In this document: piece after piece, positions 29,669-53,112 of the stretch | Layout: each line of letters starts with the position of its first letter | Numbering within the stretch: the first letter of the stretch is position 1 | Assembly: GCA_002706365.1 (NCBI GenBank) | Contig: PALM01000020.1 | Coordinates: 124,001-188,000, forward strand | Origin: Flavobacteriales bacterium | GTDB taxonomy: Bacteria > Bacteroidota > Bacteroidia > Flavobacteriales_E > Vicingaceae | Length of the DNA: 64,000 bases | Direction of reading: 5' to 3' | Position numbers and translations under genes: made by a program | Notes under the pieces: generated by a model | Seen by the model: the letters and a program-made list of their open reading frames with translations, nothing else | What the model was told of the DNA's origin: nothing | Database searches by the model: none

Positions 29669-29687
29669 CACTTCGGCAGGCTCAGTG
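29669..29687 (-). repeat. GAGC-core hairpin repeat, copy 1
   Basis: On the minus strand a CACT/AGTG stem encloses the core GAGCCTGCCGA. It belongs to a family with copies at 41716, 58567, 63144 and 63211, which keep the core and change both sides of the stem. Confidence 0.7.
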
Positions 29688-29768
29688 CAGCGGATTTTAG
29701 AGGTTAGACTGATTTGGGCAAAGTCTAAAATCTAAACTCTAATCTCTAAAATCTTAAATATTGAAAAA

Positions 29769-30533
29769 ATGAAAAAGACATTAATAATAATTACGCTACT
29801 TGCATTCAGCACCCAGCTGCTCGCCTGGGGTCAGATAGGGCATAGGACAATTGGGTTGATCGCTACCAATCATTTGAGTAATAAGACGAAGAAAGCGCTG
29901 CATGAGATCATGGGACATGAAAGTCTGATGCAAGCTTCCACCTGGATGGATGAGATTAGAAGTGATTCCACTTGGGACTATACCCATCCTTGGCATTATG
30001 TGACCATTCCAGATGGACAAAGCTATGCGACTAGTGAAAAAAGCGACAAAGGAGATGTGGTTGAAGCCATTGAAAGAATGAAGGCCATCATTAAGGACGA
30101 GAATAGCAGTCGTGATGAAAAAAGAAATGCGGTGAGAATGCTCGTTCACCTAATTGGAGATATTCATCAGCCACTACATGTGGGAAATGGAGAAGATAGA
30201 GGTGGAAATAGCGTAAAGATCAAGTGGTTCTATGAGAAGTCTAACCTTCATAGAATCTGGGATAGCGGAATGATCGATTCCAAGCAATTGAGCTATACTG
30301 AATTGGCACAATTCGTTGATCACCCCAATGAAACGCCTATCCCAAATCTCCATAGCACAGATGTGAACATATGGATCAAGGAAGCAATGGATCTAAGACC
30401 TCAAGTGTACGACCTTACCAATGAGGAGAATCTTTCTTATGAATACATGTATAAGAATTGGGACACAGTGATGGCTCAATTGGAGAAGGCGGGAATAAGA
30501 CTGGCTGAAACCTTGAATGAGATATTTGGGTAG
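29769..30533 (+). CDS. Secreted S1/P1-type nuclease
   Basis: A 254-residue exported zinc nuclease of the S1/P1 family, which cuts single-stranded nucleic acid or removes 3' phosphates. After the signal peptide (ending QLLA) the mature N-terminal Trp begins WGQIGHRTIG, where Trp and His are metal ligands. Further ligands come in ASTWMDEIRSD, the HLIGDIHQPLHVG motif, and NLHRIWDSGM. Family length is normal. Flanking gaps contain AT-rich repeat runs of the 'TCTAAAATCTAAAC' type. Probably a scavenging nuclease of the periplasm or exterior. Confidence 0.92.
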   Translation: MKKTLIIITLLAFSTQLLAWGQIGHRTIGLIATNHLSNKTKKALHEIMGHESLMQASTWMDEIRSDSTWDYTHPWHYVTIPDGQSYATSEKSDKGDVVEAIERMKAIIKDENSSRDEKRNAVRMLVHLIGDIHQPLHVGNGEDRGGNSVKIKWFYEKSNLHRIWDSGMIDSKQLSYTELAQFVDHPNETPIPNLHSTDVNIWIKEAMDLRPQVYDLTNEENLSYEYMYKNWDTVMAQLEKAGIRLAETLNEIFG

Positions 30534-40738: not shown

Positions 40739-41052
40739 TAATATACCGATGTGAAAATGGATTACATTCAATGTGTTTTTTCCCGCTGATTACGCAAAAA
40801 AGAAAGTCAGAGCCAGTAATCAGATTGATTTGATTTCGCAGATTTTTAATTCATAAATTGTAATTGACTTTATACAACTTATCTAATCAGCGTGATCATC
40901 TGCATCGCAGGATCTCTGATCCTGCGTGGGCATTATATAAAGAGTGAAAATTCCGCAGGATTACAAATCCTGCGGTACAGAGCGGGAAACCTAAAAAAGA
41001 ATTAATAAAACATGGACGTCTTCGATCCTCGTCCTCAATCATCAAAAACAAC
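40739..41052. repeat. Repeat-rich gap with two GCAGGAT hairpins
   Basis: No gene seen in 314 nt. It contains hairpin CGCAGGAT/ATCCTGCG at 40906-40926 and hairpin CCGCAGGAT/ATCCTGCGG at 40953-40975, which share the GCAGGAT stem and differ in loop. An outer inverted repeat CGCTGATTA (40784-40792) / TAATCAGCG (40884-40892) lies just before them. The REP-like arrangement lies between the signal-less BtuF gene and the DUF71 gene and may also stop transcription. Confidence 0.75.
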
Positions 41053-41847
41053 ATGCCTAAACGATTCATGAATTGGAGTAGTGGTAAGGATTCTGCCCTT
41101 TGTCTGCATAGATTAATAGAAAGCGGCAATGCTCCGGAACTATTGCTCACCACCATTAGCAAAGAAGAGCAAAGGATTGGTATGCATGGCACAAGACGCG
41201 AGCTTTTGGAAGAACAAGCAGCTGCAATTGGTATTCCTCTTCAGATCACTGAGCTCTCTGCCTCTACAGACCATGAAGCCTACAATAAATTGATGTATGA
41301 TACTTGCATGCAGTTAAAATCAGAAGGATTCGACACTGCAGTTTTTGGCGATATCTTTTTAGAAGATTTAAGAAACTATCGTGAAACACAATTGAATGAA
41401 GTAGGTATAAATGGTGAGTTTCCACTTTGGAAGAACGATACTAAAACATTGATCAAAGAGTTTGTAAATTCAGGATTGAAGTCGGTCATTGTTGCCGCAT
41501 TACAAGAGCATTTTGATGAAGATTTTGTGGGGACAGAGATCGATTCATCATTCATATCAAAGCTTCCGGAAGAAGTAGACCCATGTGGAGAGTATGGTGA
41601 ATTTCACAGCTTTTGCTATAATGGACCAATCTTTAAGCAAGAAATAACGTTTGAAAGAGGAGATAAGGTGTTGAAGTACTATAATAAACCTAAAGAGAGT
41701 AAATCAGAAATCCGCCGTCCTGAGCCTGTCGAAGGGAGAGATCAGAAATCGGAAACTTTAGATTCAAATGAAGAAAGCCGGACTCGTTCCTCGGACTCAG
41801 ACTCTAGATTAGGCTTCTATTACCTTGATCTGATCCCTAATAATTAG
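41053..41847 (+). CDS. DUF71/Dph6-like ATP pyrophosphatase (B12-associated branch) with repeat-derived insert
   Basis: A 264-residue ATP-PPase of the COG2102 family, starting MPKRFMNWSSGKDSALCLHRL with the PP-motif SSGKDS. Family motifs include 'FGDIFLEDLRNYRETQL', 'PLWKNDTKTLIKEFVNSG' and 'DPCGEYGEFHSFCY'. Eukaryotic and archaeal members make diphthamide; a bacterial branch has been proposed to act in B12 salvage by genome comparison, which fits this location. Near the C-terminus (residues about 217-252) is a polar segment (KSEIRRPEPVEGRDQ ...) encoded by an intergenic-type repeat, after which the conserved ending GFYYLDLIPNN resumes. The core looks intact. Confidence 0.88.
   Translation: MPKRFMNWSSGKDSALCLHRLIESGNAPELLLTTISKEEQRIGMHGTRRELLEEQAAAIGIPLQITELSASTDHEAYNKLMYDTCMQLKSEGFDTAVFGDIFLEDLRNYRETQLNEVGINGEFPLWKNDTKTLIKEFVNSGLKSVIVAALQEHFDEDFVGTEIDSSFISKLPEEVDPCGEYGEFHSFCYNGPIFKQEITFERGDKVLKYYNKPKESKSEIRRPEPVEGRDQKSETLDSNEESRTRSSDSDSRLGFYYLDLIPNN
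41703..41750 (+). repeat. GAGC-core hairpin repeat, copy 2, flanked by a 10-nt direct repeat inside the DUF71 gene
   Basis: The direct repeat ATCAGAAATC stands at 41703-41712 and 41741-41750. Between them is the core GAGCCTGTCGA within a CCT...AGG stem. The whole is in frame in the DUF71 gene. Confidence 0.7.
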
Positions 41848-51383: not shown

Positions 51384-51425
51384 TGATGACTTTGTTATTT
51401 AGGATGAAGGATTAAAGACTTTATT

Positions 51426-51539
51426 CAAATATGAAATATGAGATGTGAAATATGAAAGTTTGAATCAGTCTTTAGAATACAATACTCATTTGCAGAGAGT
51501 TGTGAGCTTTCACATTTCATATTTCTCATTTCACATTTG
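51426..51539. repeat. Long imperfect inverted repeat of CATATTTC-type sequence
   Basis: Arms of 33 nt at 51426-51458 and 51507-51539 pair with few mismatches, based on repeated GAAATATGA/GTGAAAT units. The right arm contains the last codons and the stop of the TlpA-like gene (stop at 51526). Probably doubles as its terminator. Confidence 0.7.
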
Positions 51540-52962
51540 GCATATCTGCCTTTTCCGCATCCTTTTCAAAGTAATACTCAAGCATTTTTTCTAGAGATTC
51601 CACACTCATCTTCTTAGAGAGGATTTTTAGGTCTTCATCTAGAAGATAGGTTTGCGGAGTACTGTAAACGTCGTAAAGACTTCTAAAATTGCTTCTAAAG
51701 TCGCCTCCATCAGAACCATTGATCCAATCTAGATTGTATTTATCGATGAAGTCGATCCAAGCTTCATTTTCATATTCACTTCCTACGGCAAAGACTTCAA
51801 GTCCTTGCTTTCTGAATCGATCGTAAACCCTCTTGAGTTTTGGTGTCGCTTCCTTACAATGCCCACAATCTGGCGACCAGATATAAACAACAGTGTATTT
51901 GGCCTTTACATCATAAAGCTGAACGAAACGTTTCATGGCTGTGTCTTTAACTATGATGTTCGGAGCTTTTTTACCGATCAACAATGGGTCAAGTGCATTT
52001 GCTCTTTCCGAAAGCTTCTCAAGATTCTTCTTGCTAAACCATTCGGGCTTCTCTTTCATAAAGTAATTCTTTGCCAAATGAACAAAGACTGCATCCATTC
52101 CCATCACCTGAGAGCGTTCATACTTGGAAGTGAAGTTGGATAGGGCGTACTTATAAAGCACCGGATTGTCCTTTACCTGAGCCAGAATGTAATCTACAGC
52201 CTCAATAAGTGAGTCAGGGTCTTGTCTAGTGAGCTTATCCAAGTAGTATTCTGTCTTTTCATGGAAAGTTGATGTCCTCAGCAAACGCTCATCGTCAAAA
52301 GCATAATTGTCGAAAAAGTGCGCTTTAAAGTACTTGAAACCGAAAGTACTGTCTGCACCTTCAGGAGCTTCAGGTACCGTTGGATATTCCACAGCATAAA
52401 TGAAGTTGGAGGTAAAAGAACCAGGATGTTCTTTATGCAAATTTGCGATATATGCCCTTACATCCTCATTGATCTGATTCATTTCAGCCTCAATAGCTTT
52501 AGCTTCTCCCGATTTTGGATCAAAAGCTTCTTTCTCCTTTCTAAGTCTAGTGACTTTTCTATTCTGCTGCGATAGGTATTTTAAATAATCATAGAATATC
52601 TTGTTCTCTTTTCCACCCTTCACTTTCATATTACCTACAATGTAAGAGGTGTCTGTTTCAAAGGAAAGCTTCTGATCATCCAATAGAAAATCGAATACTT
52701 TCTTGTTCTGAACAAGCACTGAATACATGCCGTGTTCTAGAGTGTCTTCCCCTTTAAAGGTGAATTCTCCTTTGGCATTTACTTCTGCAGTATCTCGGTA
52801 GAATTGACCTTTACCATAGAAATATGAGAGATATGCTGTTTTAGAAGGAAAATCTTCCACCTTTACTTTGATCTCGTATTGCGCCTGAGATGGCTTAAAG
52901 ATCAATACAGAGAGAAGTAATAGAACAGTGCTTTTTAGGTATTTGATGTAAGTAGTATCCAT
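51526..52962 (-). CDS. TlpA-like thioredoxin-fold protein with N-terminal DUF4369-like domain
   Basis: A 478-residue exported protein. The start at 52962 (MDTTYIKYLKSTVLLLLSV) gives a signal peptide ending SQAQ. A DUF4369-like beta domain (about 25-130) and a helical middle (about 130-320) lead to a C-terminal thioredoxin domain with the active site SPDCGHCKEATPKL and the cis-Pro region 'VYSTPQTYLLD'. It probably exchanges disulfides in the periplasm. The final residues (about the last four) come from the inverted repeat. Confidence 0.88.
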   Translation of the reverse strand: MDTTYIKYLKSTVLLLLSVLIFKPSQAQYEIKVKVEDFPSKTAYLSYFYGKGQFYRDTAEVNAKGEFTFKGEDTLEHGMYSVLVQNKKVFDFLLDDQKLSFETDTSYIVGNMKVKGGKENKIFYDYLKYLSQQNRKVTRLRKEKEAFDPKSGEAKAIEAEMNQINEDVRAYIANLHKEHPGSFTSNFIYAVEYPTVPEAPEGADSTFGFKYFKAHFFDNYAFDDERLLRTSTFHEKTEYYLDKLTRQDPDSLIEAVDYILAQVKDNPVLYKYALSNFTSKYERSQVMGMDAVFVHLAKNYFMKEKPEWFSKKNLEKLSERANALDPLLIGKKAPNIIVKDTAMKRFVQLYDVKAKYTVVYIWSPDCGHCKEATPKLKRVYDRFRKQGLEVFAVGSEYENEAWIDFIDKYNLDWINGSDGGDFRSNFRSLYDVYSTPQTYLLDEDLKILSKKMSVESLEKMLEYYFEKDAEKADMPNVK

Positions 52963-53112
52963 AGTTATTTCTTTCGCTGACAAATGTAAGTTTTATGATA
53001 GCATCCTTGCGTTAATGCTTGTTAATTGCATGACGCATGAGGGTGCCATTTGGTTTACTCTATTTAATATAATTTTCAACTCTGCAGTAAACAAATATTG
53101 TACCTTGCACAT

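Follow-up and report, generated by a model that had tools for sequence, protein, structure and literature searches.

The DUF71 gene and its C-terminal segment

The window, a stretch of 64,000 nt from the genome of a Flavobacteriales bacterium, encodes a T9SS type B sorting domain, T9SS being typical of Bacteroidota, and carries on its plus strand a gene of the DUF71 (Diphthami_syn_2) family at 41053–41847. The open reading frame is unbroken over its 264 aa and terminates with GFYYLDLIPNN. The Pfam profile PF01902 covers residues 7–205 with 112.3 bits (cut-off 23.2), and the NCBIfam model Dph6_archaeal falls below its own cut-off (91 vs 197). Profile scores of this kind, which do not fix the substrate, suggest a diphthine-ammonia-ligase-like protein. 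Two solved structures, 3rjz and 2d13, can be aligned up to residues 207 and 205, respectively. DUF71 homologues were found in 71 of the 149 genomes searched, the host genome being counted; a search of the genome contigs with the DUF71 protein as query found no relative.

From the 70 relatives with a match we aligned 29 homologue loci of the same genus, family and class, and dropped one fragment (L052). In the 28 readable tails, a short polar linker of variable length is followed by an aromatic ending, with which GFYYLDLIPNN (41812–41844) aligns. By this comparison GFYYLDL appears to be the ancestral ending of the protein, and the loop preceding it would be a naturally permissive place. Residues 217–253 (KSEIRRPEPVEGRDQKSETLDSNEESRTRSSDSDSRL), encoded by the 37 codons at 41701–41811, form a segment that is present in 0/28 tails, including that of the same-genus genome G001, and whose exact ends are uncertain. 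Relative to the same-genus homologue, the net gain is about 31 residues by hand count on the alignment. The original prediction had proposed that a repeat was inserted near the C-terminus, that the frame survived and that a conserved ending resumed after it; the open frame and the aligned ending agree with both latter points. It had also proposed that relatives without the insert should join 'YYNKPKES' directly to 'GFYYLDL'; the relatives do pass from their short linker to the conserved ending without the segment, so that a linker inherited as ancestral protein sequence is unsupported. Because no near-identical empty site exists among the genomes compared, the closest relative being 62% identical in protein, insertion as a single event, the ends of the segment and a target duplication cannot be shown.

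Anatomy of the composite

The segment is a composite of about 110 nt that combines three repeat types, one of which is nested within a second. A heptad array interrupted by a REP-like block is followed by a spacer and by a CCGGACTCG..CCTCGGACTC block, all on the plus strand. The first part of the array, AAATCAGAAATC, occupies 41701–41712. The REP-like block CGCCGTCCTGAGCCTGTCGAAGGG (24 nt, 41713–41736) reads RRPEPVEG, as first noticed, and contains the GAGC-core repeat of the original prediction as the 17-mer CCTGAGCCTGTCGAAGG at 41719–41735. The second part of the array (AGAGATCAGAAATCGGAAACT) extends over 41737–41757, and the CTCGG-rich block CCGGACTCGTTCCTCGGACTC plus AGACTC, at 41778–41804, lies within the residues SRTRSSDSDS. 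The period of 7 nt is apparent in the segment as a whole, where lag-7 identity (0.404) is the maximum over lags 2–21.

When 12 in-gene modules of the same genome (see below) were aligned, their common order was heptads, spacer and CTCGG block, the last being weak or absent in some. Both parts of the DUF71 array align with the arrays of the other 11 modules. Only in DUF71 is the array interrupted, and once the 24-nt block is taken out it reads through like the arrays of the SDR and E2 genes. The same nesting of a REP-like block in a heptad array is found at the intergenic site C8:20973. These observations bear on the 10-nt direct repeat ATCAGAAATC, which is indeed present at 41703 and 41741 and had been read as a possible target-site duplication. 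It belongs to a word with 92 genome copies, and because the array resumes when the 24-nt block is removed, as at C8:20973, the pair is array sequence flanking a nested repeat. Nor are two copies exceptional within the window (at least two in 15 of 100 shuffles). This duplication is therefore rejected; the ends of the segment being uncertain, another one is possible.

The hairpin that had been taken as the captured unit is likewise abandoned. The intervals 41713–41740 and 41701–41815 fold no better than shuffled sequences (z +1.06 and +2.21), the longer one folding worse than its own shuffles. The in-gene core reaches −0.9 kcal/mol, and two intergenic copies folded with their flanks (z −0.45 and −1.32) do not fold clearly better than shuffles.

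Distribution of the repeats

The repeat blocks of the composite are all dispersed in the 3.02-Mb genome, a draft of 47 contigs in which the DUF71 contig measures 358 kb. The 17-mer CCTGAGCCTGTCGAAGG has 8 exact and 10 one-mismatch copies, with about 0.0001 exact copies expected by base composition and none in the reversed-pattern control. AAATCAGAAATC has 92 copies at 70 sites, often in period-7 arrays (about 0.9 expected by base composition; reversed control 1), and the triple heptad unit AAATCNGAAATCNGAAATC occurs at 74 places. The 21-mer of the CTCGG-rich block, CCGGACTCGGTCCTCGGACTC, has 15 copies at up to 3 mismatches (reversed control 0). Taken together, the flanks of the 18 core copies also peak at lag 7. 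A AAATCAGAAATC-type heptad stands on both sides of the core in only 2 of the 18, and nesting of the core in such a heptad is thus seen at a few places only. A REP-like block lies within 45 nt of 10 of the 70 heptad sites.

Across the genome set, the exact 17-mer core was found in 36 of the 149 genomes, the host genome being counted, with a reversed control of 0 in every row. One core place was sampled in each of 29 genomes, and 11 of these places fell within ORFs of at least 150 aa, among which L070, L075 and L076 may carry the repeat outside the true gene. Pfam, run with L075 and L076 left aside, named eight of the 11: two HsdM-type methyltransferases, a T9SS sorting domain protein, a 2-hydroxyacid dehydrogenase, an amino acid kinase, an M1 peptidase, an E2 subunit and a methylmalonyl-CoA mutase. 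The REP-like unit has probably been captured in frame beyond the present species, as far as these reading frames indicate. Four-unit heptad arrays form at least 118 stretches in many phyla and are thus not confined to the present group. Many arrays of the same type are present in the unrelated genome of Acidobacteria bacterium SZAS-13 (L199, L205 and other loci), some of them as close opposite-strand pairs.

In-gene copies across the genome

The heptad word is found inside 14 long ORFs, at 16 of the 70 sites, and always in the sense orientation (16/16, binomial p 3e-5); the other 54 sites lie outside long ORFs. Sites with the word at the extreme end of the ORF, at its likely start or ahead of it, or in a short ORF were not counted as in-gene (C8:20340, C20:67980, C20:355420, C31:14271, C46:64461 and C46:82872; spanning ORFs of 103–266 aa). 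In-gene sites are far scarcer than the proportion of DNA taken up by genes would give (coding fraction about 0.915 in the window), as expected if most in-gene insertions were purged. Besides DUF71, the hosts recognized by Pfam are a tRNA uracil methyltransferase, an S49 peptidase, MutL, DnaX, a 2OG-Fe oxygenase, FtsK, a short-chain dehydrogenase, an E2 acyltransferase, an ATP-dependent DNA ligase, a mechanosensitive channel, an HTH protein and a DUF5606/DUF6852 protein; the heptad-bearing ORF at C7:34860 had no Pfam hit. In many hosts (MutL, FtsK, E2, DnaX, HTH, DUF6852) the segment lies between Pfam domains or in a tail. It separates the two halves of MutL, the membrane and motor parts of FtsK, and the lipoyl and E3-binding domains of the E2 acyltransferase, and the linker of DnaX contains three successive modules (G000:C16:23693-24108, L110).

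Related sequences occur in other genes. A DsbD-like gene carries a related module that lacks the exact 12-mer. Two core copies without the AAATCAGAAATC heptad, read DPSTGSGT, lie in further ORFs, of which one encodes a protein resembling an outer-membrane barrel (below the Pfam cut-off) and the other an HMA-domain protein. With the DnaX linker as protein query, six more weak matches came up: four in ORFs already listed, which belong to three genes, one in another frame of the DnaX region and one in a new ORF at C36:102183. Such segments form a family in at least 15 genes of the genome. Absence from relatives was also observed at two more loci: in place of the ligase segment, 6/6 relatives show a clean gap of 35 residues (the weak match L327 left out), and the oxygenase segment is missing in 13/13 (L319, weak and partial, left out). 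The idea that a repeat was captured in the DUF71 gene thus holds in that the repeat is in frame, dispersed and mostly intergenic, and was too narrow in that the unit is a composite of about 110 nt belonging to a genome-wide family.

Frame properties of the heptad

Repeats of TCAGAAA encode SEIRNQK in all three sense frames, since a period of 7 nt visits each reading frame in turn (7 and 3 being coprime), and their antisense strand runs into TGA whichever frame is read. The stop-bearing antisense suffices to explain the sense-only orientation of the in-gene sites, and no insertion preference is required. Some array units have the form TCTGAAA, which is stop-bearing in the sense strand when tandem; inside genes these units occur in stop-avoiding phases, as the open frames indicate. 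In the same-genus genome G001 and in G003, of the same family, the heptad is CTAAAGN instead, and 0 of the 24 places listed, many of them overlapping, is in an open frame. This contrast shows which arrays can be captured, though it is partly a tautology, a stop-bearing array being unable to sit in frame. It is conceivable, though we would put it at somewhat less than even, that 7-nt arrays are frame-independent peptide donors, their open strand adding one and the same hydrophilic heptapeptide wherever they land, that a stop-free dominant heptad has led to a steady gain of disordered linkers in core proteins, unlike in the stop-bearing sister genomes, and that heptad/REP/CTCGG cassettes are a species-specific source of new protein segments.

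RAYT-type genes

Core copies were absent within 1.5 kb of all three Y1_Tnp (RAYT-type) loci of the genome. One of them (L118) is located less than 1 kb downstream of the repeats of the DnaX ORF, and at this locus heptads are found only inside that upstream gene. Mobilisation by linked RAYT genes was therefore rejected, the repeats not forming the flanks of any of the three loci; this concerns linkage, and action in trans is possible.

Origin of the segment

We consider it quite probable that the DUF71 segment is a composite of dispersed, mainly intergenic repeats captured in a loop, that it is one of a family in at least 15 genes, that inserted copies were filtered by selection, and that the effect is most likely neutral. 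This reading starts from the dispersal and nesting of the repeats, from relatives that lack them at the DUF71, DNA ligase and 2OG-Fe oxygenase loci, and from the sense-only orientation. The composite would have come into the loop that precedes the enzyme's last conserved strand, and the open frame suggests that it is translated as a polar, probably disordered loop. Copies may have inserted and then passed a selection filter, the survivors being those with a length divisible by three, a stop-free strand and a tolerant loop, tail or linker as host site. The heptad part would be well suited to such survival, being open in all sense frames. For the DUF71 enzyme itself, a neutral effect is most likely.

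Not all of the evidence is predicted by an intergenic origin. A CTCGG block follows the heptads at 7 of the 16 in-gene sites vs 3 of the 54 others (p 0.0008), an excess that leaves room for a module carried by coding sequence. The polar peptide (KSEIRNQKSE...RTRTSDSD) would then have recombined from gene to gene as a good disordered linker, and the intergenic copies would be its decayed leftovers. The common block order of the 12 aligned modules fits this possibility, as does a GAGCAAGAGGCTGAAA-like stretch recognized by sight upstream of several of them. However, most heptad sites (54 of 70) lie outside long ORFs, the REP-like core is shared by 36 of the 149 genomes, and intergenic copies with both heptad and CTCGG blocks exist (C24:9492 and C27:51368). 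Moreover, heptad arrays yield one peptide in any frame, so that peptide likeness needs no selection. We therefore regard the coding-borne module as unlikely, though it is the best of the alternatives.

Growth in place, by replication slippage of a 7-nt unit in the loop with no dispersed repeat imported, appears still less probable. Period-7 arrays are regarded as slippage-prone by Mrazek et al., according to PMC4679880, and the loop is variable in length among homologues, but slippage of a heptad cannot make the REP-like core and the CTCGG block, both of which are dispersed. A misjoin that placed intergenic sequence in the gene is very improbable: repeats are a usual cause of misjoins and the assembly is a 47-contig draft, yet the composite occupies only about 110 nt within a 358-kb contig, homologues at three loci match the sequence before and after the segment in a single frame, and the in-gene sites are all sense and open (16/16).

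Capture of intergenic repeats, the reading we prefer, has precedents. The reviews PMC2229807 and PMC10969869 describe the Rickettsia palindromic elements (RPEs) as short dispersed repeats located between genes and in frame in unrelated conserved genes, whose proteins are thought to be tolerant. The present repeat resembles them in being both intergenic and in frame in unrelated genes (16/70 sites, 14 ORFs, relatives without it at three loci). It differs in structure and lineage: RPEs are palindromes of 105–150 bp with a long stem-loop in an alphaproteobacterium, whereas we find a composite of array, REP-like and CTCGG blocks with no stable hairpin in an unrelated lineage. According to PMC3733652, intragenic GTAG/CGTC REPs occur in many species, frequently in genes for DNA repair and synthesis, with DNA ligase among them. 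These are 20–40-bp palindromes with tag tetranucleotides, whereas the in-gene unit here forms no hairpin, is nested in a heptad array and does not adjoin the RAYT genes of the genome. The MITEs ERIC/RU-1, RU-2 and RU-3 and the Correia elements are presented in PMC2759123 and PMC2229807 as dispersed small elements with open frames that lengthen or interrupt genes; unlike them, the present segment, whose ends are uncertain, was found with neither terminal inverted repeats nor a target duplication.

Known heptanucleotide repeats are TAACTGA in Beggiatoaceae, cyanobacteria and some Bacteroidetes, GGGAATC in Xanthomonas and GGGGA(C/T)T in Nostoc. PMC4679880 already notes the coding consequence of TAACTGA arrays, one strand being stop-bearing and the other encoding a repeating heptapeptide. 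The present arrays are similar to this LSSR type in forming period-7 tandem arrays genome-wide, mostly between genes, but consist of other heptads, are tied to REP-like and CTCGG blocks, and lie in frame in many conserved genes. In a full-text literature search the letter strings of the core and the short peptides had no match, a result that speaks of those strings only.

The present case works like RPE capture but is neither an RPE nor a MITE nor, by the tests made, a RAYT-linked REP. In-frame repeat capture is already known from the Rickettsia elements, REPs and MITEs; the heptad/REP mosaic is a further variant. The repeats of this genome appear to have been supplying its proteins with extra segments that are tolerated and probably floppy, and a different type of repeat has thereby become part of conserved proteins in a lineage remote from Rickettsia. 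The frame properties of the heptad suggest a simple arithmetical basis for the capture of some repeats and not of others, an idea testable by counting open and stop-bearing heptads in related genomes.

Other repeats of the window and genome

Upstream of the DUF71 gene, at 40903–40980, the inverted repeats GCAGGATCTCTGATCCTGC and CCGCAGGATTACAAATCCTGCGG resemble by eye the flanks of a RAYT gene (G000:C40:80243, L117) and look like an ordinary RAYT-type REP family, separate from the in-gene repeats. An intergenic stretch at 29670–29771 has a degenerate REP-like core (3 mismatches) beside a TCTAAAA/TCTAAAC period-7 array with lag-7 identity up to 0.80, so that the REP-like/heptad pairing is also present outside genes. 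At intergenic heptad sites, for instance L022 and L088, several arrays begin at or just past the stop codon of the upstream gene (GAGTAAATCAG...). Two further period-7 arrays, of the AAATGTG/AAATATG type, are located at 51423–51550; the second overlaps the 3′ end of a minus-strand ORF (51526–52983), the last residues of which are encoded by the array.
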